Notes under the pieces: model-generated
Database searches by the model: none
What the model was told of the DNA's origin: nothing
Seen by the model: only the letters and a program-made list of their open reading frames with translations
Program-made: the position numbers and the translations under genes
DNA from: Bacteroidota bacterium
GTDB taxonomy: Bacteria > Bacteroidota > Bacteroidia > Bacteroidales > FEN-979
DNA: 64,000 nt
Assembly (NCBI GenBank): GCA_026391835.1
Contig: JAPLDF010000038.1
Span: 1 to 64,000 of the forward strand
Direction: 5' to 3'
Shown here: piece after piece, positions 15,844 to 28,520 of the stretch
Numbering within the stretch: position 1 is the first letter of the stretch
Layout: the number at the start of each line of letters is the position of its first letter

Positions 15844-18240
15844 ATGAACCGGATCCATCTTAAAGTCTTTATTCTCATATTTATGATGAGTGCATTTACA
15901 CTCAATGCGCAAACCTATGGTGATTACACTTTTTACGCACCCAAAACCAACGGCAAGGCATACCTTGTTGATATGAGCGGAAACACTTACCACACCTGGA
16001 CATTCGCCGCCAATGCCCCCACCGGATATTCTTCCTATTTACTCCAGGGGGGAACCGTGCTGAGAACCGTGGCAAAGACGGGAAACTCCTTTACAGGCGG
16101 ACCCGTTTGCGGGGAGGTACAAAAAGTTGACTGGAACGGAAATGTCGTATGGGACTTCGTTTATTCCACCACTACCTATTGTTCGCATCATGATATTTGC
16201 CCTATGCCAAACGGGAATGTACTGCTGATCGCATACGAATCAAAGACACCGGCGGAGGTGACCCAGGCCGGCTGTTCACAAAGCATTACCATGTGGCCTG
16301 AAAGGATCGTTGAGATTCAGCCATCGGGCACCACGGGAGGAACCGTGGTATGGGAGTGGCATGCATGGGATCACCTTTGCCAGAACTACAACGCTGCCAA
16401 AAGCAATTATGTCACATCCATCGTGCAGCACCCGGAATTGCTTAACATCAATTATAACACCCAGAAAGACTGGATGCATGCGAACGGGATCGACTACAAC
16501 GCAGCCCTCGACCAGATCACCTTCTCTTCGCATTATTTAAATGAACTCTATGTGATCGATCACAGCACGACCACTGCCCAGGCCGCAGGGCATACCGGCG
16601 GAAACTCGGGCAAAGGCGGGGATTTACTCTACCGGTGGGGAAATCCTGCCGCTTACCAGGCATCGGGTACAACCATCTTCAACGTGGTTCATGATGCACA
16701 CTGGGTGCCGGCTGATTGCCCGAATGCAAATTACCTTGCCGGGTTCAACAACAAAGGCGGTACGGGCAATAAAACATGCGTCGACCTTATCAACCCGCCT
16801 TACAACGGGTATAATTACAACCTCACCCCCGGCTCCGCCTACGCCCCGGCCACCTATGACTGGCGTCATACCTACAGCGGCACGCCCACCCAGGACGAGG
16901 GAAATTCGCAGCAACTGCCTAACGGGAATACCCTGGTCTGCATTTCATTCTCAGGATATATTTACGAAATCAACCCAGGTCAGACGGTTGTATGGTCAAA
17001 AACCATTGCAGGTTCGGTTACCAATGCCTTCCGGTATACCGCCTGTTATGTCAACGGCCCGGGGACGGTCACAGCAACCGCATCACCAAACCAGGTCTGC
17101 ACGGGAACATCTGTCCAGCTTACCGCAACCCCTTCGGGCGGCACATCCAACACCTATTCCTGGACATCGCTTCCGGCAGGGTTTACCTCCACCCTGCAAA
17201 ACCCTGTTGTTTCGCCTGCCGTCACCACAAGCTATATTGTAACCATGACCAGCGGCACCTGCTCTGCCGGTGATACCGTTACCGTTACCGTCATCCCGCA
17301 GCCCACGGTGGCGGCAAGTGCCTACCCATCGCAGGTATGCCCGTTTGCATCAGCACAACTTTCGGCCGTACCAAGCGGAACCGGCCCCTATTCCTATTCC
17401 TGGACCTCCGTTCCTGCAGGATTCACCTCCGCCCTGCAGAACCCGGTTGTAAACCCGGGTGTGGCAACAACCTATACGGTTACCATCACCAGCGGGACCT
17501 GCACGGCAACGAACTCCACAACAGTCGACATGCTTGCGCCGCCTACGGTCCTCGCCACCGCCGACCCCCAGGAGATATGCCCCAATGGCTCATCACAGCT
17601 GAATGCCACCCCCGGCGGAACGGCAAACTACGTTTACGCCTGGACCTCCATCCCTGCAGGATTCACCTCCGCCCTGCCCAACCCGGCTGTATCCCCTTCT
17701 GCAACAACGATGTACATCGCCGGCATCTTGGCCGACGGCTGCCAGGCCTCCGATTCGGTGCTGGTTACCGTCGACGCATTGCCAGCCACGCCGGTCATTA
17801 CCCTCAGCGGCGATTCGCTGATGTCGAGTTCACCCGCCGGGAACCAGTGGTACCTGGATGGCGGCATCCTCAGCGGGGCTACCGGACAGTACCTCCTGAT
17901 CCCCCAACCCGGATCCTACCAGGTACAGGTTACCGGCTCCACCGGTTGCATCTCCCAGATGTCGGCCCCCTTCATCTATGTGGGCATCGGCGAAGCGATC
18001 GACGGATGTAGTGTCACTGTTTATCCCAACCCGACAAACGGCACCATCAGGGTCGGCGGCACCGGGCTGGAGAACAGGTCGTTCGACGCCAGGTTGTTCA
18101 ACTCCCTGGGCAGGATGGTTCTCTCTTCGAAAAACATCTGTACATTTGATCTTTCAGGGATGGCAGGCGGAATATATTATCTTTCCATTGTGACAGACCG
18201 GTCGGAATCACTTACAAAAAAGATCATCCTGATTAAATAA
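15844..18240 (+). CDS. Secreted aryl-sulfate sulfotransferase-like protein with Ig-like repeats and T9SS sorting domain
   Basis: 798 residues. A signal peptide (to about residue 22, NAQ) leads into a domain of about 360 residues that resembles bacterial arylsulfotransferases (ASST): SHHDICPMPNGNVLL (His115/116), WMHANGIDY (His212), FSSHYLNELYVIDHS (His230), GDLLYRWGNP and VVHDAHWVP (His283/286). ASST enzymes move sulfate between phenols using an active-site His; which His here is catalytic cannot be settled by eye. Residues about 400-645 hold three similar PKD/Ig-like repeats (TATASPNQVC, AASAYPSQVC, LATADPQEIC), and the end (VTVYPNPTNGTIRV onward) is a type A T9SS sorting domain. It should be exported to the cell surface. 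A close paralogue follows six bases later. Confidence 0.85.
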   Translation: MNRIHLKVFILIFMMSAFTLNAQTYGDYTFYAPKTNGKAYLVDMSGNTYHTWTFAANAPTGYSSYLLQGGTVLRTVAKTGNSFTGGPVCGEVQKVDWNGNVVWDFVYSTTTYCSHHDICPMPNGNVLLIAYESKTPAEVTQAGCSQSITMWPERIVEIQPSGTTGGTVVWEWHAWDHLCQNYNAAKSNYVTSIVQHPELLNINYNTQKDWMHANGIDYNAALDQITFSSHYLNELYVIDHSTTTAQAAGHTGGNSGKGGDLLYRWGNPAAYQASGTTIFNVVHDAHWVPADCPNANYLAGFNNKGGTGNKTCVDLINPPYNGYNYNLTPGSAYAPATYDWRHTYSGTPTQDEGNSQQLPNGNTLVCISFSGYIYEINPGQTVVWSKTIAGSVTNAFRYTACYVNGPGTVTATASPNQVCTGTSVQLTATPSGGTSNTYSWTSLPAGFTSTLQNPVVSPAVTTSYIVTMTSGTCSAGDTVTVTVIPQPTVAASAYPSQVCPFASAQLSAVPSGTGPYSYSWTSVPAGFTSALQNPVVNPGVATTYTVTITSGTCTATNSTTVDMLAPPTVLATADPQEICPNGSSQLNATPGGTANYVYAWTSIPAGFTSALPNPAVSPSATTMYIAGILADGCQASDSVLVTVDALPATPVITLSGDSLMSSSPAGNQWYLDGGILSGATGQYLLIPQPGSYQVQVTGSTGCISQMSAPFIYVGIGEAIDGCSVTVYPNPTNGTIRVGGTGLENRSFDARLFNSLGRMVLSSKNICTFDLSGMAGGIYYLSIVTDRSESLTKKIILIK

Positions 18241-18275
18241 CATAATTGTTTGTCGTGACAACCATAAAGAAAGAT

Positions 18276-20024
18276 ATGCAAAAAATATTTCATTTTCGCC
18301 ACCGCTTCAGGGTTGCCATGTTGTCGACCGCGTGGTTATTTGGCTTCCTTTTCCTCATGGGTTCAGTGGGTTCCCAGACGTACGACGGGTACACGCTCTA
18401 TTTTCCGCAGGGAGGCACGAAAGCTTACCTGGTTGATCTTTCCGGGAACACCTATCACACATGGACCTTCAGTGCAAGCAAACAGACCTGTTATGCCAGC
18501 TACCTGCTTGCGGGGGGGGTATTGCTGAGAACCGTCAACCACCAGGGAAACTCCTTTACCGGGGGCCCGATTTCAGGGGAGGTGCAAAAAGTCGACTGGA
18601 ACGGCAATGTTCTATGGGATTTTGTCTATTCCACCACTGATTACTGCTCCCATCACGACATTCACGGCATGCCCAACGGCAACGTCCTGCTGATCGCCTA
18701 TGAGCGCAAGAGTGCGGCCCAGGTGACCCAGGCGGGATGCTCCCAGGGCATCGAGATGTGGCCCGATAAAATCGTCGAGATCCAGCCTTCGGGAACAAGC
18801 GGCGGAACAGTGGTTTGGGAATGGCATGCGTGGGATCACCTTGTACAGAATTTTGACCCGGCTAAAAGCAACTACGGCGTGGTGGCCGACCATCCCGAAC
18901 TGCTCAACATCAACTACCATACATCAAAAGACTGGATGCACATGAACGGGGTTGACTACAACGAAACGCTGGACCAGGTCACATTCAGTTCACATGCGCT
19001 CAATGAGATTTATGTAATCGATCACAGCACCACAACTGCGGAAGCTGCATCACATGCCGGGGGAAATTCGGGAAAGGGCGGGGACCTTCTCTACCGCTGG
19101 GGGAATCCGGCCGCTTACAATACTGCCGGAACCACAGATTTCAACGTGGTTCACGACGCACACTGGGTACCTGCCGACAATCCCCTGTTCCCGAATGCAC
19201 TTGGCGGCTTCAACAACAAGGGAGGTACCGGCGGAAAAACCTGCGTCGACCTGGTCAATCCGCCCTACAACGGGTACAATTACACCCTGGTTCCGGGTAC
19301 GGCATATGCACCTGCAACCTATGACTGGAGAAACACCTACAGCGGCAATACGAGCCCGGACAATGGAAATTCGCAGCAGCTGCCAAACGGGAACACGCTG
19401 ATCTGCATTGGCATGTCGGGTTTTATCTACGAGATCGACTCAAACCAGGTCCAGGTGTGGTCGAAAAGTGCCGGAAGCACCCTGGCCCAGTCGTTCCGTT
19501 ACCCCCCATGCTTTATAACAGGAACCTATGGGGCAACGGCAACCGGTTCTCCTGCAACAATCGCTCCCGGGGGCAGTTCGCAACTTGGTGTTTCGGTTAC
19601 GGGTGGCGTCGCATATACTTATTCCTGGATGTCAAACCCGCCGGGGTTTTCATCCGGCCTGCAAAATCCCGTTGTTTCACCTGCTGCAACAACAACGTAT
19701 TATGCAACGGTTAAGAATGGCCCCTGTTCGGCCACGGATTCCATCGTGATCACCGTTGATGGTACCGGCATAGGTGAATCCTCCTTCAGAAACGAGATCA
19801 GGATATTCCCCAACCCGGCTACTAATTGGATCACCGTTACCGGGAAGCGCCTTGAAAACACATCATTCACCGTGACCATATTCAATGCCCTCGGGAAGGT
19901 CGCGGGGACATTCAGGAACCAGCATACGCTGGACCTTTCAGGGCTTCCAGGCGGAATCTATTACCTTACGCTGCTTACCGGCAACCGGGAATATGCCGGT
20001 GAAAAAATAATTCTTGTTAAATAA
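18276..20024 (+). CDS. Second aryl-sulfate sulfotransferase-like T9SS protein (paralogue)
   Basis: 582 residues from ATG 18276; the frame extends to 18246 but the upstream codons are not signal-like. After the signal peptide it repeats nearly every block of its neighbour: YLVDLSGNTYHTWTF, SHHDIHGMPNGNVLL, DWMHMNGVDY, FSSHALNEIYVIDHS, GDLLYRWGNP and VVHDAHWVP. It has only one Ig-like repeat (near residues 430-510) and a T9SS type A tail (IFPNPATNWITV). The two genes are a tandem duplication that has since diverged in repeat number. The short gap to the upstream gene implies co-transcription. As with the paralogue, the sulfotransferase activity is inferred from the fold family, not shown. Confidence 0.85.
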   Translation: MQKIFHFRHRFRVAMLSTAWLFGFLFLMGSVGSQTYDGYTLYFPQGGTKAYLVDLSGNTYHTWTFSASKQTCYASYLLAGGVLLRTVNHQGNSFTGGPISGEVQKVDWNGNVLWDFVYSTTDYCSHHDIHGMPNGNVLLIAYERKSAAQVTQAGCSQGIEMWPDKIVEIQPSGTSGGTVVWEWHAWDHLVQNFDPAKSNYGVVADHPELLNINYHTSKDWMHMNGVDYNETLDQVTFSSHALNEIYVIDHSTTTAEAASHAGGNSGKGGDLLYRWGNPAAYNTAGTTDFNVVHDAHWVPADNPLFPNALGGFNNKGGTGGKTCVDLVNPPYNGYNYTLVPGTAYAPATYDWRNTYSGNTSPDNGNSQQLPNGNTLICIGMSGFIYEIDSNQVQVWSKSAGSTLAQSFRYPPCFITGTYGATATGSPATIAPGGSSQLGVSVTGGVAYTYSWMSNPPGFSSGLQNPVVSPAATTTYYATVKNGPCSATDSIVITVDGTGIGESSFRNEIRIFPNPATNWITVTGKRLENTSFTVTIFNALGKVAGTFRNQHTLDLSGLPGGIYYLTLLTGNREYAGEKIILVK

Positions 20025-20040
20025 CCTAAAAGAAAAAAAC

Positions 20041-21255
20041 ATGAAACCAATTATCCGCAACATGCTGCTTCTCCTGCTGGTGCTTGCAGGATCCGTTATC
20101 CGGGCGCAGCAATTCACCAACTACACCTCCGCAAACGGACTTCCTTCCGACAATGTGACGGGTGTCGCCATCGATGCCGGCAACCACAAATGGTTTGGCA
20201 CACAGGCCGGGGTTGCCACATTCAACGACACCGCCTGGACTACCTACACGACTGCAAACGGATTGATTGACAATTACATTAACTGCATCGCTGTAGATGT
20301 AAACAACCATGTTTGGGTAGGAACGGATTATGGCGTCAGTAAATTTGACGGTTCGGTGTGGACATCCTATACTGCTGTCCACGGCCTTGTGAACAATACA
20401 GTGAACTATATTGCCGGCGATCCCGACGGAAGCGTGTGGATCGGAACCGGCAACGGCTTGTCAAACTTTAACGGCACAACGTGGAAAAACTACACCACCA
20501 CGGATGGATTGCCCGGCAACCTCATCAGCTACATCGCCATCGACGGGAGCGGGAACAAATGGCTGGGAACCTTTCTTGGGGGAGTGTCCAAATTCAACGG
20601 AACGACGTTTACAAATTTCACCATGGCGGCCGACAGCCTTCCTTCCGACAACATTTATGCGATCGGCATGGGGGCCAACAAAACAAAATGGATCGGCACA
20701 TACAACGGGGTGGCGGTTTTCGACAGCCTCGACCATTGGGTTTGTACGTACAGGAAAGCCCAGGGAATGTTAAACAGCTTCGTCACCGACCTCGCCATGG
20801 ATTCAAGAAAGACGATGTGGTTCGGACTTTACGACATCTATAACCAGGAAGGGGGAATTACCCGCAACAATGCCAGCGACTGGCGCTCCTATACCGTTGC
20901 CAACGGCCTGGTCAACACACTTGTTAAAAGGGTTGCCGTTGACAAGTCCGACTTCATCTGGATTACAACCGGATCGGGCGTTTCCAAATTGTATGACCCC
21001 ACTTCGGGTGTGGGCGAACCGGCCGGGATGACGTTGAATATTTTTCCAAACCCCGCAACCACCGAAATCCACCTGGATGGCCTGGCCACCTCCGGAAAAC
21101 TTTCGGTCATGACAATTGACGGGAAAGTACGCATGTCGCAACTCCTTGTGAAAGGCTCAAACGTTGTCAGCCTCCAGGGCCTGCCTGCCGGGGTTTACCT
21201 TATGAAATATGCAACCGGGCAGGGCAGTTACTCAGGAAAACTTGTTATCAGGTGA
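20041..21255 (+). CDS. Reg_prop-type beta-propeller protein with T9SS sorting domain
   Basis: 404 residues from ATG 20041, 17 bases after the preceding stop. After a signal peptide (GSVIRAQ) it has about seven repeats of the pattern GLPSDNV..IAID..GN.KWFGT..GVSKFNGT.WT.YT, the two-component-regulator propeller blade (PF07494). Such blades usually form the sensor part of hybrid kinases, but here there is no membrane helix or kinase. The chain ends in a T9SS type A sorting domain (LNIFPNPATTEIHL), so it is a secreted or surface propeller. Its stop overlaps the GTG start of the next gene. Ligand unknown. Confidence 0.85.
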   Translation: MKPIIRNMLLLLLVLAGSVIRAQQFTNYTSANGLPSDNVTGVAIDAGNHKWFGTQAGVATFNDTAWTTYTTANGLIDNYINCIAVDVNNHVWVGTDYGVSKFDGSVWTSYTAVHGLVNNTVNYIAGDPDGSVWIGTGNGLSNFNGTTWKNYTTTDGLPGNLISYIAIDGSGNKWLGTFLGGVSKFNGTTFTNFTMAADSLPSDNIYAIGMGANKTKWIGTYNGVAVFDSLDHWVCTYRKAQGMLNSFVTDLAMDSRKTMWFGLYDIYNQEGGITRNNASDWRSYTVANGLVNTLVKRVAVDKSDFIWITTGSGVSKLYDPTSGVGEPAGMTLNIFPNPATTEIHLDGLATSGKLSVMTIDGKVRMSQLLVKGSNVVSLQGLPAGVYLMKYATGQGSYSGKLVIR

Positions 21256-23510
21256 GGCAGACAATCTTTGCAATAATCTTTTTTGCCTTCCTGTTCCCGG
21301 TGATGGGACAGGAAGGGTTTTACGATGTGGGGAAGATCCAGGAGATCAGGATCATCATGCATGAGAAGAACTGGAAACATATGCTCGACAGCGTATTTAC
21401 ATCAAGCCTGGGAAATGACCGCCTGGACTGTGACATCCTGATCAACGGGCAGCTTCTCAAAAACGTTGGGATCCGTTACAAAGGATTCAGTTCCGTGGAT
21501 GTGAAGGATGTTAAAAACCCGTTCAACATCGACCTGGCCTACAGCCGGAATAACAACAACTACAAGGGATATACGAGTTTAAGGCTGGGAAATGTCAACT
21601 ACGACCCCTCTTTTATCCGGGAAGCCCTGTCGTATGAGATCGCCAGGAAGTACATGCCGGCGAGTCATGCGAATTTTGCGCATGTTTATGTCAATGATAC
21701 CCTGCTCGGACTTTATTCCAACGTGGAGGCGGTAAATGCGGAATTCCTGACCGGGTATTTCTCCGGCAATGGCAACAGTTTTATCAAGGGATCGCCCGCA
21801 ACGCTTGAATACCCGTTCGGCCAGAATGCAAACCTTGCAAATACGCACGGTACCGATTCCACGGCTTACCAGCCCTTTTATGCGCTTGAATCGGATTACG
21901 GCTGGTCTGACCTTTACCATTTCATTGCTGTCCTGAACCAGGATCCCGACAGCATTTCACAGGTGCTGAATGTTGACCGTGCCCTGTGGATGCATGCATT
22001 CAATTACGCACTGCTCAACCTCGACAGCTACATCGGGTATTCACAGAATTACTACATGTACAAAGATAACAACGGGATTTTTCAAATGATCCCGTGGGAC
22101 ATGAACATGTCGTTCGGCAGCTTCCGCCATTCCGACGGGTCTACCCATTTCAACGGGCTGACCATCCCGCAGACCAAACAGCTGAACCCGCTCGGGCTAA
22201 TTGATTTCGCCGTATCCCCGCGTCCCCTGGTAACCAAACTGCTGAAGAATGACACGCTGAGGAGAATGTTCCTGGCACATATGCGGACGATCGTGGAGGA
22301 GAATTTAAGCAACAATGAATATTTCACAAGGGGGCAACTCATTCAGGCAGTCATCGACTCGTCGGTCAATGAAGATACGAACAAGTTTTACTCCTACGAA
22401 TATTTCCATGAAAACCTGCTGAACACCGTCGGAAGTTCCGGTTCGGCCAATGAATTCCCGGGGATCAGGGACCTTGTCGAGGCCAGGGTGAACTATCTTG
22501 ACACTTTGCCCGGCATCCGGGGCGCCCCGGTGATCGGGTGGCACCGGCATGATCCGGAAGTCCCGGTAAAGGGTCAACAGGCCTGGTTCACCGTGCAGGC
22601 AACCGGAACGTCCAGGGTTTTCCTTGGCTTCCGCTTCCGGTCTGCTGATGCGTTCACGAAGATCCCGATGGAAGATGACGGGAACCACCATGACAGTATT
22701 GCCGGAGACGGGATTTACGGGGCATCCCTCCTTCTCACCGGCCCCGTGATCCAGTATTATTTTTACGCTGAAAACGACAGTGCGGGCATCTTTTCGCCTG
22801 AAAGGGCCGAATACCAATTCTTCTCCCTCCAGCCGATGATCGTTGTCGGGGACGTGGTGCTGAATGAGTTCCACACCGGAAGCGGCATTGAAACCTGGAT
22901 CGAACTGCTCAATACCTCTTCCGAGCCCCTGAACCTGGGAGGGATGAAACTTTCCGACGACCCGGCTTCTCCTGCAAAATGGGAAATCCAGGATACGGTC
23001 ATCCCGCCTAAAAAATATCTCCTTATCTACCCGGGCGAGAATATCAAAGCAGGAACGACGGCATCATCCATCACGCTTCCCACGTCGAGAGGCACCCTGC
23101 GGTTGTCGAACGCATCGGGCCTGGCAGTCGATTCGGCCAGTTACGGGCTGCAGGTTGCGGGAAAGAGCACGGGCAGATATCCGAACGGAACCGGTGCGAT
23201 GACCTTTATGCTTCCGACAAAGGGAAGCTACAACACTTCCGGGACAACACCCGGAACAGGGTTCCTCCTCTACCCGAACCCCGCAAGGGAAGTGGTCAAC
23301 ATCGAGATCATGGACCATTCGGGGCCGGTAAGCGTAACGATTATCAACTCCCTCGGAAAACCGGTCCTCGAAAATACCACTCTTTACAATACCAGCCTGG
23401 TACAGCCCGTGGCACAACCGGTTGATATTTCGACCCTCGGCAGCGGGCTCTATATGATACGGGTTGGCTGCAACGGGGCTGTCACAACCCAAAAACTCGT
23501 TATTTATTAA
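21252..23510 (+). CDS. CotH-kinase family protein with lamin-tail domain and T9SS sorting domain
   Basis: 752 residues. The GTG start at 21252 overlaps the upstream TGA (GTGA), giving translational coupling and a good signal peptide (FAIIFFAFLFPVMGQ). Residues about 25-390 are a CotH-type kinase-like domain: VGIRYKGFSS, NLDSYIGYSQNYYMYKDNN (Asp258) and IPWDMNMSFG (Asp283). CotH in Bacillus is an atypical spore-coat protein kinase. Residues about 535-640 (VLNEFHTGSG.ETWIELLNTS) are a lamin-tail domain, and the end (FLLYPNPAREVVNIEI) is a T9SS type A tail. It is predicted to act outside the cell. Its proximity to VTC and DUF4956 genes matches a recurrent neighbourhood of unknown purpose. Confidence 0.87.
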   Translation: MRQTIFAIIFFAFLFPVMGQEGFYDVGKIQEIRIIMHEKNWKHMLDSVFTSSLGNDRLDCDILINGQLLKNVGIRYKGFSSVDVKDVKNPFNIDLAYSRNNNNYKGYTSLRLGNVNYDPSFIREALSYEIARKYMPASHANFAHVYVNDTLLGLYSNVEAVNAEFLTGYFSGNGNSFIKGSPATLEYPFGQNANLANTHGTDSTAYQPFYALESDYGWSDLYHFIAVLNQDPDSISQVLNVDRALWMHAFNYALLNLDSYIGYSQNYYMYKDNNGIFQMIPWDMNMSFGSFRHSDGSTHFNGLTIPQTKQLNPLGLIDFAVSPRPLVTKLLKNDTLRRMFLAHMRTIVEENLSNNEYFTRGQLIQAVIDSSVNEDTNKFYSYEYFHENLLNTVGSSGSANEFPGIRDLVEARVNYLDTLPGIRGAPVIGWHRHDPEVPVKGQQAWFTVQATGTSRVFLGFRFRSADAFTKIPMEDDGNHHDSIAGDGIYGASLLLTGPVIQYYFYAENDSAGIFSPERAEYQFFSLQPMIVVGDVVLNEFHTGSGIETWIELLNTSSEPLNLGGMKLSDDPASPAKWEIQDTVIPPKKYLLIYPGENIKAGTTASSITLPTSRGTLRLSNASGLAVDSASYGLQVAGKSTGRYPNGTGAMTFMLPTKGSYNTSGTTPGTGFLLYPNPAREVVNIEIMDHSGPVSVTIINSLGKPVLENTTLYNTSLVQPVAQPVDISTLGSGLYMIRVGCNGAVTTQKLVIY

Positions 23511-23606
23511 CTTTATGAGATTGTTTAAATTTTTATCAAATTCCCTGGTACACAGATTGTAAAAAACGCTCCTGCAATGAATTAACCCGCAAATAATTAT
23601 ACTTCT

Positions 23607-24023
23607 ATGACATCCAAATTTAAAAAATCCTTCACCATCAGCATGTTATTGCTACTGGCCGTCCCCATGATGATGATTTCATGCAAAAAAGAGCCCGGAA
23701 CAGGCGGCAAATCGACCATCTACGGAAAGGTGCTGGTGAAGGATTACAACTCCACCTTCACTGTGTTGCAGGAGACCTATTATGGTCCCGAGATCTGGGT
23801 TTATCTCATCTATGGCGACGACCGGGATTACGGCGACCGCATCCAGACAAGCTATGACGGGACCTGGGAATTCAAATACCTGCGTGCGGGAACATATAAA
23901 GTTTATGTATTATCCAAGGACTCGACGCTGCAAACCAGTGCGATGGTCCCTGTGATCAGGGAGGTCGTGATCCCCAACAAAAAACAGGAGATTGAAGTGC
24001 CTGATCTCGTAATCTTTAACTAA
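23607..24023 (+). CDS. Lipoprotein with a carboxypeptidase-regulatory-like domain
   Basis: 138 residues. A lipoprotein signal (LLAVPMMMISCKKEP, lipid-bearing Cys26 in the lipobox) leads to one small beta domain: STIYGKVLVKDY near the start, then YDGTWEFKYLRAGTYKVYVLSKD. This is the pattern of the prealbumin/carboxypeptidase-regulatory fold used as a spacer or adhesion module. It stands 97 bases after the CotH gene and six bases before the next, so it opens the VTC/DUF4956 set. No enzymatic motif is seen. Confidence 0.7.
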   Translation: MTSKFKKSFTISMLLLLAVPMMMISCKKEPGTGGKSTIYGKVLVKDYNSTFTVLQETYYGPEIWVYLIYGDDRDYGDRIQTSYDGTWEFKYLRAGTYKVYVLSKDSTLQTSAMVPVIREVVIPNKKQEIEVPDLVIFN

Positions 24024-24029
24024 CCCAAT

Positions 24030-24596
24030 ATGAACCGGACAATTATTTTATTCCTGTGCCTGCTGATCGGGCTCACCGCCCCCTGCCAAAGCAAGAAAGA
24101 ACGAAAGAAATACAAGATCAAGTCGACGACTGAATGGGAAACCACCACCGCTGATGACAAGGCCACGACCTATAAAACATCCTATGAGGAGTTTGACAAG
24201 GCAGGACACACGACGGTAAAAATCGAATATGCTCCCGACGGAACTGTGTCATTTAAGGCAACCGCCGTTTACGACAGTTTCAAAAACAAAACCGAAGAGA
24301 CTGAATTCGACCTGGCAAAAAAGAAAAACCTCCGAAAGACATATAAGTATAACGCCCTGAAAGACATGACCGAGGAGGTGGAGTATGAAGGTACGGGAGC
24401 AATCCGCAAAAAAACGGTATACGCTTACGATGCCAGCGGCAACAAAATTTCCGAAACAGAGTCGGATGCCACGGGAACCCTCCTGAAAAAATCGGTCTAT
24501 ACCTATAATTCCAAAAACCTGAAGACCGGGAAGACCACCGCCCCGGGATCTAAAAAGAAAGACAAGTCGAAAAAGTGGGAATATGTCTACTATTGA
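24030..24596 (+). CDS. Exported YD-repeat-like protein
   Basis: 188 residues with a signal peptide (MNRTIILFLCLLIGLTAPCQ). The mature part is very rich in Lys, Glu, Thr and Tyr, and has about five degenerate units such as TVYAYDASGNKISETE, SVYTYNSKNLKTGKT and EFDLAKKKNLRKTYKY. This is the tyrosine-aspartate (YD/RHS) style of beta repeat. No RHS toxin core or C-terminal effector follows; the chain stops after KWEYVYY. Its last 14 bases overlap the start of the VTC-domain gene. Likely periplasmic; function unknown. Confidence 0.7.
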   Translation: MNRTIILFLCLLIGLTAPCQSKKERKKYKIKSTTEWETTTADDKATTYKTSYEEFDKAGHTTVKIEYAPDGTVSFKATAVYDSFKNKTEETEFDLAKKKNLRKTYKYNALKDMTEEVEYEGTGAIRKKTVYAYDASGNKISETESDATGTLLKKSVYTYNSKNLKTGKTTAPGSKKKDKSKKWEYVYY

Positions 24597-25338
24597 TGAA
24601 ATGATCACACTGTTTGAGCCCATCCCGCTTGAAAAAATGGATGAGGTGAAACTGCTTAACCGGATGGATTCAAAATTCATCTTCAATGCGGCGAAGCTGC
24701 CCTGTGTCCTGGAGCAGCTTTATGCCTCTTACTATGTCCTGGAGATCGGGATGGTCCGGCTTCAGCGGTATGAAACCCTCTATTTCGACACACCAGAACA
24801 CAGGCTGTACCTGAACCATCATAACAAACGGCTGAACCGTTTCAAAGTCCGCAGCCGAAAATACGTCGATTCCGGTCTCTGCTATTTCGAAATCAAGTTC
24901 AAAAACAACAAGGGAAGGACGTTGAAGGAGCGGAACAGGCAAAAAGGTCCGCAGGAGGAGATCACCGGCAAACAGGAGCGCCTGCTGACCACCACGACGA
25001 AACTCACGCCCGGCATGCTTCAGCCTGTCCTCTGGGTTAATTTCACCCGCATCACCCTGGTCAATCATGGCATGTCGGAGCGGGTTACCATCGATACCGG
25101 TCTTACTTTCAGGCACGGACTGGCCGAACGTTCATACCCCGGGTTGGTGATCGCCGAAGTAAAACAGGACAGGTCGGCACCTTCCGTCATTTCCGGTATC
25201 CTGCACAGGGAGCATGTTCCCGGAACGAATATCAGCAAATATTGCCTGGGGATCATCAGTCTCAACCAGGAGATCAAACAAAACAATTTCAAACAGAAAC
25301 TCATTCACATTAACAAACTGAATCATGATATCTGCTAA
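24583..25338 (+). CDS. VTC-domain protein, probable polyphosphate polymerase
   Basis: 251 residues, cytoplasmic by sequence. It matches the VTC domain (PF09359), whose yeast member Vtc4 makes polyphosphate from ATP at the membrane. The charged tunnel residues are kept: Arg27-Asp29-Lys31 (NRMDSKF), YFDTP (67-71), Arg86, Lys88-Arg90-Arg92, Glu103-Lys105-Lys107 (FEIKFK), VNFTRITL, RVTIDTGL and VIAEVKQD. All these are on facing strands of the tunnel in the known fold, so activity is plausible. It overlaps both neighbours, the YD-repeat gene and the DUF4956 gene, and is surely translated with them. Confidence 0.87.
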   Translation: MSTIDEMITLFEPIPLEKMDEVKLLNRMDSKFIFNAAKLPCVLEQLYASYYVLEIGMVRLQRYETLYFDTPEHRLYLNHHNKRLNRFKVRSRKYVDSGLCYFEIKFKNNKGRTLKERNRQKGPQEEITGKQERLLTTTTKLTPGMLQPVLWVNFTRITLVNHGMSERVTIDTGLTFRHGLAERSYPGLVIAEVKQDRSAPSVISGILHREHVPGTNISKYCLGIISLNQEIKQNNFKQKLIHINKLNHDIC

Positions 25339-26041
25339 GCAACTTACAATGTTCTTCCTGCTTCTGCTCCTGGCCATGCCGGTCAAGGTGTGCCTGCCTC
25401 AACAGGCGGATCCCGACCTGGCGCTTATGGAAGAGCCCGTTTCCAAAGAGACCAAATCGAAGAAGAAGGAGCAAAAGATCCTCGAGATGAACGAAAAGTT
25501 CCTCATAAGCCTGGGCATCAACCTGCTCAACGTGGCGCTGATCATCCTGTTCATCTATTACCCCAACTACCGGAAGCTCGACTATATCTTTACCTTCATC
25601 ATCTTCAACCTGGTGATCTTCCTGCTTACCTTCGTGCTGAAATATGTCAAACTCTCGGTAGGGGCGGCATTCGGGCTTTTTGCGGTATTCTCGATGCTGC
25701 GGTACCGCACCCAGGGGCTTTCGATGAAGGATCTCACCTACCTTTTCATCTTCATTTCGATGGGGGTCATCAGTGCCATCCAACTCGAATATTATGAACT
25801 GGCGATCATTCATGGCATCATCCTTACCAGCACCTTCGTTCTCGACGGGAATATCATCTTCAAGCGGGAACTCCTGAAGAGCATCCAGTACGAAAACATC
25901 GAGATGATCAAACCCGGCAACCATGAAGCCCTGATGGGTGACCTCCGGAACAGGACCGGCCTCAACATTCACCGGATCGTGATCGGAAAGATAAATTTTC
26001 TCAAGGACTCAGCTGTGATCAAGGTATACTATTATGACTAA
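25325..26041 (+). CDS. DUF4956 membrane protein
   Basis: 238 residues. A signal-like first helix is followed by a charged linker (SKETKSKKKEQKILEMNEKF), then about four closely spaced membrane helices (residues 60-165) with the family hallmark GAAFGLFAVFSMLRYRTQGLSMKDLTYLF. A soluble tail of about 70 residues follows. The family function is unknown. DUF4956 genes commonly sit next to VTC-domain and CotH genes, so a role as the membrane partner of the polymerase is inferred. The start overlaps the VTC stop by 14 bases and the stop overlaps the next start. Confidence 0.88.
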   Translation: MISAKQLTMFFLLLLLAMPVKVCLPQQADPDLALMEEPVSKETKSKKKEQKILEMNEKFLISLGINLLNVALIILFIYYPNYRKLDYIFTFIIFNLVIFLLTFVLKYVKLSVGAAFGLFAVFSMLRYRTQGLSMKDLTYLFIFISMGVISAIQLEYYELAIIHGIILTSTFVLDGNIIFKRELLKSIQYENIEMIKPGNHEALMGDLRNRTGLNIHRIVIGKINFLKDSAVIKVYYYD

Positions 26042-26708
26042 AAGGCCGGGATATCTTTTAATATTTTTCCTGGTCCTTGCAGGCAACACGCTCCGTTCGC
26101 AGGTGAACGACGCCCAGCTGTGGCTGAGCGCAAACCTGGAAAAGAAACTGACACCCGCCCTGTCGCTTGGGTTTACGGAGGAGATGCGGATGAACGAGAA
26201 CATCACCGAAGTGGGCACCATTTTCAGTGACCTTGGCCTCAGCTACCGGTTTCTGCAGCGATTCAAGGCCGGTGCATCATACCGTTTCACGATGAAGAGA
26301 AGGTATGACGACACATACAAATACCAGAACAGCTGGTATGTTGAAGGAAGTTACCGGGAAAAGCTGAAACCGGTCACGCTGGCCCTAAGGCTGCGCTACC
26401 AGTCAAGGTATGCCGAAGAACAGACCACCAAAAAGTCGGAAATCCCAAAGAACCACCTGCGGACAAAACTTACGGTGAAATATGACCTTCAGAAAAAATT
26501 CGAACCCTACCTGTATGCCGAAACATATTTCCGTACCGGTGTAACGGCAGCTTACTCATTCGATCAGCTCAGGCTGTGCGCAGGCATGGAGTATACCTTC
26601 AACCGGATGCACATGATCGACCTGCATTACCTGTTCTGCCGCGAATACAACGTGGTGAACCCCGAAACGGACTATGTGATCGGGATCGGATATTATTTTA
26701 CATTTTAA
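26034..26708 (+). CDS. DUF2490 outer-membrane beta-barrel protein
   Basis: 224 residues with a signal peptide (LLIFFLVLAGNTLRSQ). The mature chain consists of alternating amphipathic strands (LWLSANLEKKLTPALSLGFTEE, FKAGASYRF, LALRLRYQSRY, YVIGIGYYFTF) and ends in aromatic FTF, as expected for an outer-membrane barrel inserted by BAM. The start overlaps the DUF4956 stop by eight bases, so it belongs to the same operon. It probably offers an outer-membrane channel or anchor to the VTC/DUF4956 pathway (inference). Confidence 0.82.
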   Translation: MTKRPGYLLIFFLVLAGNTLRSQVNDAQLWLSANLEKKLTPALSLGFTEEMRMNENITEVGTIFSDLGLSYRFLQRFKAGASYRFTMKRRYDDTYKYQNSWYVEGSYREKLKPVTLALRLRYQSRYAEEQTTKKSEIPKNHLRTKLTVKYDLQKKFEPYLYAETYFRTGVTAAYSFDQLRLCAGMEYTFNRMHMIDLHYLFCREYNVVNPETDYVIGIGYYFTF

Positions 26709-26712
26709 CAAC

Positions 26713-27822
26713 ATGACACGATCTTTTTTAACCGGGAAGAAACTCAGGGTACTGCTGCACCTGGTGGTCTGGTCTGTACTGTTTATCCTCCCGGCCTACA
26801 TGCTCTATGGCAATTCGGCGCGCGACCGCTCTTTCATGATCGAAGTGTGGTTTCAGCTTGCCTGTTTCGCGGTCCTTTTTTACACGAGTTACAACCTGCT
26901 GGCCCCGCGTTTCTTTTTTACCGGGAAGAAAGTCATGTATTTCATCACTGCAGCCCTGATGATCATCATTTTTACGCTGTTCCTCGGGTTGTTGCATGAC
27001 CATTTCGTTCCCGATTTCAGGAGAGTCAACATGGAGCGCCAGCTTCCTTCAAAGACGGAATGGGAAACGGGCCGGCAGGGACTTCTCAGGCCTCCCCCCA
27101 ACGACAAGCTGCCTCCGCCGGTGCGGAACTGGCCGCTGTTCAACTTCCTGCTCTCCTCCTTTATGGTAACCGGGTTAAGCCTGGGCCTTCGGTTTTCGGA
27201 AAAACTCCAGCTCAACGAAAAGTTACGCAAAGAGGCGGAAAAAGAGAAACTGCATACCGAGCTTGCATTGCTGAAACACCAGATCAACCCGCATTTCCTG
27301 TTCAACACCCTGAACAGCATATACAGCCTTGCACTGATACAAAGCGACAAGACCGCCGAAGCGGTGATGATGCTGTCGGACATGATGCGGTATGTGATCC
27401 AGGATGTGGAGCACGAGACCGTGCCGCTTGAACTTGAACTTGAATATGTTGTGCATTATGTTGAACTGCAGAAGATGCGTCTGGCCGGCAACATAGATAT
27501 CCGGGTAAATATCGAAGGGGATCCCGGGCCATACATGATTCCGCCGATGATACTGGTTCCGTTTGTCGAGAACGCATTCAAATATGGCACCAGTTCCCAT
27601 GAAAATGCGGTGATCAGCATTGATCTGAAAATTGCCGGCGGGTTGCTTACGTTCAATGTTTCAAACCATGTATTTGCCGGCAGGGAAAAAGCCGAAACAT
27701 TCGGCATCGGCATCCAGAACACCCGGCAGCGGCTGAACCTGATGTACCCGGGGAGGCACAAGCTGGTACTGTCGAACACCGGAACAATCTTCATGGTAAA
27801 TCTCGAGATATCCCTGGCATGA
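26713..27822 (+). CDS. LytS/YehU-type sensor histidine kinase
   Basis: 369 residues. Four membrane helices (about residues 12-33, 45-62, 75-95 and 143-160) are joined by a Pro-rich loop outside helix 3. The His_kinase domain (PF06580) begins LLKHQINPHFLFNTLNSI, with the phospho-accepting His194, and the ATPase part has VPFVENAFKYG and the glycine box GIGIQNTRQRL. There is no periplasmic sensor domain of note. It starts only four bases after the DUF2490 stop and overlaps its response regulator, so the pair seems to be part of the envelope operon. Confidence 0.92.
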   Translation: MTRSFLTGKKLRVLLHLVVWSVLFILPAYMLYGNSARDRSFMIEVWFQLACFAVLFYTSYNLLAPRFFFTGKKVMYFITAALMIIIFTLFLGLLHDHFVPDFRRVNMERQLPSKTEWETGRQGLLRPPPNDKLPPPVRNWPLFNFLLSSFMVTGLSLGLRFSEKLQLNEKLRKEAEKEKLHTELALLKHQINPHFLFNTLNSIYSLALIQSDKTAEAVMMLSDMMRYVIQDVEHETVPLELELEYVVHYVELQKMRLAGNIDIRVNIEGDPGPYMIPPMILVPFVENAFKYGTSSHENAVISIDLKIAGGLLTFNVSNHVFAGREKAETFGIGIQNTRQRLNLMYPGRHKLVLSNTGTIFMVNLEISLA

Positions 27823-28520
27823 TGACCTGTATTGCTGTCGACGATGAGCCACTGGCACTGGAAGTGATCAGGAAATATGTTTCTGACACACCACTGGTAA
27901 GGCTTTTAAACACGTTCACCGATGCCATCCAGGCGTTGACCTTCCTCAAGTTGCAGCAGGTTGACCTGATCATCCTCGACATCCGGATGCCCGATATCAG
28001 CGGGATCCAGTTCCTGCAAAGCCTGAAAGAGCGCCCCATGGTGATCTTCACCACCGCCTACGCCGAATATGCTGTGAAGGGCTTTGAACTCGAAGCGGTT
28101 GATTACCTGGTAAAACCGATCAAATTCGAACGGTTTGAAAAAGCCCTGGAGAAGGCGGGGAAACTGATGGCCATGCGCCGGGCGGCTGCACTGGAGCCGG
28201 AAGAAGACTTCATGTGCGTGAAATCGGGTTATGGCACTGTGAAGGTCAGTTTTGGCGACATCCTCTATATCGAAGGGCTTGATGATTACATTAAAATTCA
28301 CTTCCTGGATGAAAAGAGACCCGTCCTCTCGCTCATGAGCCTGAAGAATGTCCTGGAAAAGCTGCCGGAAGGCCGGTTCATGCGGGTACACAGGAGTTTC
28401 ATCGTTTCGCTGAAAAACGTCAGGAGCGTCCGTAAAAAACACATCTTTCTCGAAACCATTAAAATACCGATCGGAGATACCTATGCAGAAGCAGTCCATT
28501 CCTGGCTTTCGGGATTATAA
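27819..28520 (+). CDS. LytTR-family response regulator
   Basis: 233 residues. The receiver domain (1-120) has the acidic pocket Asp8-Asp9, the phosphorylation site Asp54 (IILDIRMPDISG), Thr in FTTAYAEYAV and Lys in YLVKPIKFERF. Residues about 135-233 form a LytTR DNA-binding domain (VKVSFGDILYIEGLDDYIKI, FMRVHRSFIVSLKNV). The start overlaps the kinase stop (ATGATG over TGA). It is the cognate partner of the LytS-type kinase just upstream and probably acts on the CotH/VTC operon or on envelope genes (inference). Confidence 0.93.
   Translation: MMTCIAVDDEPLALEVIRKYVSDTPLVRLLNTFTDAIQALTFLKLQQVDLIILDIRMPDISGIQFLQSLKERPMVIFTTAYAEYAVKGFELEAVDYLVKPIKFERFEKALEKAGKLMAMRRAAALEPEEDFMCVKSGYGTVKVSFGDILYIEGLDDYIKIHFLDEKRPVLSLMSLKNVLEKLPEGRFMRVHRSFIVSLKNVRSVRKKHIFLETIKIPIGDTYAEAVHSWLSGL

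Follow-up and report, generated by a model that had tools for sequence, protein, structure and literature searches.

Gram-positive Pel loci are known to have an accessory set of genes for a CotH kinase, a polyphosphate polymerase (PPP/VTC), a DUF4956 protein and DUF4832, and the trio of the first three flanks the Pel genes in Streptococcus, Clostridium and Bifidobacterium (PMC7112168). In S. intermedius the trio is represented by SIR_1592-1594, and both Pel and aggregation change when the DUF4956-type gene or the CotH gene is deleted, the reported phenotypes not being those of the polymerase gene SIR_1593 (PMC12345266). Outside Pel loci, the authors of that study saw no such trio. CotH genes also occur beside the VTC/DUF4956 pair in other phyla (PMC7112168, PMC2879425).

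The cluster described here, from a window of 64,000 nucleotides (the whole stretch of DNA analysed) of a Bacteroidota bacterium, is a variant of this known CotH-VTC-DUF4956 module, with DUF2490 and secreted partners and with no Pel genes nearby. Like the Gram-positive set, it has the CotH, VTC and DUF4956 genes together; unlike that set, it lacks adjacent Pel genes and adds a DUF2490 barrel, a lipoprotein, a small protein labelled YD and a CotH protein predicted to be secreted by the T9SS route. The trio is thus not tied to the Pel polysaccharide, contrary to the published view.

Resemblance to the eukaryotic VTC complex, of which Vtc4 is the catalytic subunit, extends to the TTM fold, the tunnel residues and the presence of a membrane partner, whereas the SPX and DUF202 domains of that complex were found in none of the cluster proteins scanned, and the catalytic and membrane parts are encoded by separate genes in the window, the membrane part being DUF4956. 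With the Bacillus CotH spore-coat kinase (PKL/Fam20C-like) the window protein shares the kinase domain and two aspartates, the catalytic one and that of the IPWD motif, but it is fused to a Lamin Tail Domain (LTD) and a T9SS tail, and its predicted export is from a Gram-negative cell. The DUF2490 protein belongs to the same Pfam family as the putative porins of TC 1.B.81, its usual site being directly after DUF4956.

In the literature, we found no paper linking VTC, DUF4956 or CotH to DUF2490, or to donors for extracellular kinases. A sequence-only reading of this DNA had proposed an uncharacterised envelope phosphorylation pathway; the idea of such a pathway is partly supported by the present analysis. 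The word "uncharacterised" does not quite fit, as it overlooks the precedent of the trio in Gram-positive Pel loci (PMC7112168, PMC12345266).

Organisation of the cluster

Table 1. Genes of the cluster and its upstream extension in the window.
Feature	Position	Strand	Basis or remark
Arylsulfotransferase-like (PF05935/PF14269) secreted protein, T9SS tail	15844..18240	+	recurrent upstream neighbour
Second arylsulfotransferase-like T9SS protein, tandem copy	18246..20024	+	domain scan
Reg_prop beta-propeller protein, T9SS tail	20014..21255	+	domain scan; recurs within its own family and in a few more
CotH kinase domain, LTD and T9SS sorting tail	21252..23510	+	Pfam CotH 4.6e-41; secreted atypical kinase
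138-aa predicted lipoprotein (hyp), lipobox-like ISCKK	23607..24023	+	sequence; second gene upstream of VTC, conserved
188-aa predicted secreted YD protein	24030..24596	+	conserved, immediately upstream of VTC
VTC/TTM polyphosphate-polymerase-type protein	24583..25338	+	Pfam VTC 4.8e-28
DUF4956 membrane protein	25325..26041	+	Pfam 1.3e-43
DUF2490 putative outer-membrane porin (TC 1.B.81 family)	26034..26708	+	Pfam 5.4e-23
LytS-type membrane histidine kinase (HK)	26713..27822	+	Pfam His_kinase 1.2e-25; attachment lineage-specific
LytTR response regulator (RR)	27819..28520	+	Pfam Response_reg and LytTR; attachment lineage-specific

All nine genes called among the window ORFs between 20014 and 28520 lie on the + strand, so that the unidirectional run, with its positions, had been read correctly from the sequence. 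It is not uninterrupted, as a gap of 96 bp follows the CotH gene, nor does it begin there, as the conserved block reaches upstream through the Reg_prop gene (4-bp overlap with CotH) to the two arylsulfotransferase-like T9SS genes (15844-20024). The CotH and VTC genes are separated by two small genes, 6 bp apart. From YD onwards spacing is tight, with overlaps of 14 bp at YD/VTC, 14 bp at VTC/DUF4956 and 8 bp at DUF4956/DUF2490, a gap of 4 bp before the histidine kinase and an overlap of 4 bp between the latter and the response regulator. An arylsulfotransferase-like gene was seen in 20 of 80 VTC loci; the window has a tandem pair.

The label "YD-repeat" for the 188-aa protein was the sequence-only reading's alone, since this protein has no match in either Pfam or NCBIfam. 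VTC is single-copy in the window's genome, while a second CotH gene is encoded elsewhere. Elsewhere in the genome there is also an ordinary polyphosphate kinase, PPK1, and VTC is therefore not required for ordinary polyphosphate storage.

Conservation across the phylum and beyond

A sample of 296 Bacteroidota genomes was searched for VTC, DUF4956, DUF2490 and CotH, which are carried by 48, 74, 104 and 107 genomes, respectively. DUF4956 is present in every one of the 48 VTC genomes, and 26 of the 74 DUF4956 genomes have no VTC. For 51 of 54 VTC genes, DUF4956 is the next gene downstream, on the same strand and within 600 bp, the order always being VTC then DUF4956; in the other three, DUF4956 is found within 3 kb, with CotH in between (maps L087, L095, L097) or close by. 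VTC is also beside 18 DUF4956 loci in a set comprising 40 near relatives and the window's own genome.

The 80 loci fetched by VTC come from Bacteroidales, Chitinophaga, Flavobacteriales, Cytophagales, some archaea and one member of the Verrucomicrobia. Emticicia (L167), a cultured representative of the Bacteroidota, is among the carriers of the cluster. Within 6 kb on the same strand, these loci contain DUF4956 (73/80), DUF2490 (66/80), the hyp lipoprotein (58/80) and YD (58/80), compared to none of each among 329 distal genes, although many loci are co-descended and counts from the sets L028-L044 and L106-L185, which have some genomes in common, are not additive. VTC and DUF4956 overlap or are at most 10 bp apart in 71 of 73 loci. 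The strict order hyp-YD-VTC-DUF4956-DUF2490 occurs in 47 of 74 loci, 26 of which have CotH no more than three genes upstream. The gene cluster is a genuine conserved neighbourhood, far beyond chance. It was on such a neighbourhood in other genomes that the sequence-only reading had staked its proposal, and both the VTC-DUF4956 adjacency and the five-gene order recur.

The attachment of CotH is looser. It is found in 33 of the 80 VTC loci (vs 5 of 329 distal genes) and within 8 kb in 27 of 50 loci with enough flank, i.e. about half, either upstream or downstream. This variable placement would fit CotH being an unrelated passenger, with the system consisting of YD, VTC, DUF4956 and DUF2490 alone. 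We regard this as very unlikely, as CotH is encoded in 47 of 48 VTC genomes (23 of 24 families) and in 67 of 74 DUF4956 genomes, its overall frequency being 107 of 296 (for CotH and VTC, hypergeometric p near 2e-23, a statistic that ignores shared ancestry), and as it accompanies the pair in other phyla (PMC7112168, PMC2879425).

A different picture emerges for the LytS/LytTR pair, which had been read as the sensor of the pathway. A histidine kinase is beside the cluster in 17 of 80 loci, so that any sensing by LytS/LytTR is lineage-specific and the sensor role was over-read; we reject the pair as a core part, as it adjoins the cluster in some lineages only. A local profile (P334) was likewise discarded, its matches being mainly to T9SS tails.

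Candidatus Methanoperedens archaea (L115-L117) possess a VTC-DUF4956 pair that shares about 50% identity with its Bacteroidota counterpart, which looks like gene exchange between domains. In two of these loci (L116, L117) genes for MoaA and an AsnC-type HTH protein adjoin the pair. These archaea have no outer membrane, and they keep VTC and DUF4956 without DUF2490; for this reason the two genes look like the minimal unit, and DUF2490 like an outer-membrane addition.

The VTC protein

While phmmer with the single VTC protein gave no relevant match in the PDB, and a first VTC profile produced a weak match to Vtc2 and nothing better, a broader profile of bacterial VTC proteins matches yeast Vtc4 (3g3q) at 2.9e-21. 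In this alignment R27, K31, R90, R92, K105 and K115 of the window protein correspond to Vtc4 R196, K200, R264, R266, K281 and K294, and R156, R167, E192, K194 and K219 to R361, R373, E426, K428 and K458. All eleven mapped tunnel residues are invariant among 62 aligned sequences, so the claim that they are kept was correct. Substitutions at three of them (R264A/R266A/E426N) impair yeast VTC (PMC9911596). The AlphaFold model (pLDDT 93.8) has the TTM beta-tunnel fold and is nearest to Vtc4 (Z 18.5), with hydrolytic TTMs scoring at most 14.5.

Hydrolytic TTMs carry four Glu at positions where Vtc4 is basic (PMC4641920). In this acidic patch the window protein has basic R27 and K194 but carries an Asp at residue 29, a site occupied by Thr198 in Vtc4 and by Glu in hydrolytic TTMs. 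That single acidic position could be taken to indicate a triphosphatase-type or regulatory TTM, the cluster then being an envelope system that responds to phosphate or metal and produces no polyphosphate, and the listing of the B. thetaiotaomicron DUF4956/DUF2490 genes in the iron stimulon of that species (PMC10434189) points in the same direction. We consider this quite improbable, given that R27 and K194 are basic like their counterparts R196 and K428 in Vtc4, and that Vtc4 is the top match by both fold and profile. The identity of the VTC enzyme is well supported. The Vtc4 profile match, the kept tunnel residues and the Vtc4-nearest model make a polyphosphate polymerase the best reading of the protein, its activity being predicted from sequence and model.

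Envelope partners and the CotH kinase

In the predicted DUF4956 structure, one N-terminal helix precedes five membrane-type helices, and the C-terminal domain is ferredoxin/ACT-like. That it had been named a membrane partner is supported. Comparison of folds turned up no relative with confidence (Foldseek E 0.02 at best; top VIA Z 7.9, on helices), and two candidates, the anion channel ALMT12 (Z 7.9, 5.2 A) and the AcrB helices, were rejected as being at chance level for helical proteins. Twelve proteins flanking the VTC-DUF4956 pair, in deeper classes, match HlyD_3. Because DUF4956 is a membrane protein that has HlyD-like neighbours elsewhere, a role in envelope transport is plausible, i.e. 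that it helps to move the product across the envelope. The DUF2490 protein passes the PF10677 cut-off (82.1 vs 29.8 bits), and its assignment to a putative outer-membrane barrel family agrees with the description of these proteins as a putative porin family (TC 1.B.81; PMC4827864).

In the CotH protein, Asp258 aligns with the catalytic Asp and Asp283 is the Asp of the IPWD motif; both are kept, as had been stated, and the protein has the PF08757 domain, catalytic Asp and metal-binding Asp of its family. It is probably a T9SS-exported surface kinase, with phosphorylation as its predicted activity.

Proposed pathway and its relation to Pel

Of several possible explanations, we tentatively favour one in which two genes of the cluster form a bacterial counterpart of the eukaryotic VTC complex, to which surface partners are added, while rating it at slightly less than an even chance. 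The VTC protein, in the cytosol, would polymerise phosphate from ATP; DUF4956 would anchor it and pass the chain through the inner membrane; DUF2490, the small lipoprotein and YD may handle the chain in the periplasm and outer membrane; and the T9SS-exported CotH kinase or kinases would work at the cell surface, with the phosphate polymer as a possible donor or partner. The linkage, the catalytic residues and the VTC fold are observed, and the partners are predicted to be membrane-bound or secreted; from these we infer the polymerase activity, the membrane passage, the role of each envelope protein and the donor for CotH. We count against this two-gene counterpart the Asp at position 29, the lack of a confident fold relative for DUF4956, the presence of CotH within 8 kb in only about half of the loci, the 26 of 74 genomes with DUF4956 but no VTC, and the fact that the changes reported in S. 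intermedius are not those of the polymerase gene SIR_1593 (PMC12345266). It also requires an extracellular phosphate donor for CotH. A more specific form, a conveyor across the envelope from VTC via DUF4956 and the outer-membrane barrel to CotH, which would use polyphosphate rather than ATP as donor for surface proteins or polymers, seems distinctly unlikely.

The Gram-positive precedent suggests another process, where the trio is a matrix or exopolysaccharide accessory module that uses phosphorylation to tune how a surface polymer is produced or assembled, and has no dedicated export of polyphosphate. Its position at Pel genes in three genera (PMC7112168), and the changes in Pel and aggregation upon deletion of CotH and DUF4956-type genes (PMC12345266), argue for such a role. 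For the cluster studied here we find it somewhat unlikely. None of the neighbouring window proteins scanned belongs to a Pel family, and the cluster is not contiguous with pelDEADAFG. PelG, the single Pel family searched genome-wide, gave no match in 19 of 20 genomes that carry the cluster, and the match in the remaining one (G031:C38:48347-48676; E 7.2e-4) is below the cut-off, at 19.1 vs 29 bits. In that genome, the DUF4956 loci are on contigs C3 and C56 and the sub-cut-off match is on C38. Nor is any polysaccharide synthase prominent among the genes that recur nearby, where one polysaccharide biosynthesis protein was seen.

The locus is compact and conserved, and joins a polyphosphate polymerase, as best read, to a membrane partner, a putative outer-membrane pore and a kinase predicted to be exported. 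The question of the phosphate donor for secreted kinases thereby becomes directly testable in cultured Bacteroidota.

DUF4956 genes without VTC

HlyD-like adaptors are also found beside DUF4956 genes that have no VTC. In four such loci (L100, L101, L102, L105) the gene after DUF4956 encodes a protein of adaptor size, which is HlyD-like in L101 and L102 and biotin/lipoyl-like in L100, and the next gene a protein of about 410 aa, for which there are no Pfam matches in L100-L102. Two further loci without VTC (L066:8419-10868, L067:5415-7864) have DUF4956 followed by an unknown protein of 341 aa and by one of 480 aa, the latter being a metallophosphatase in L066.
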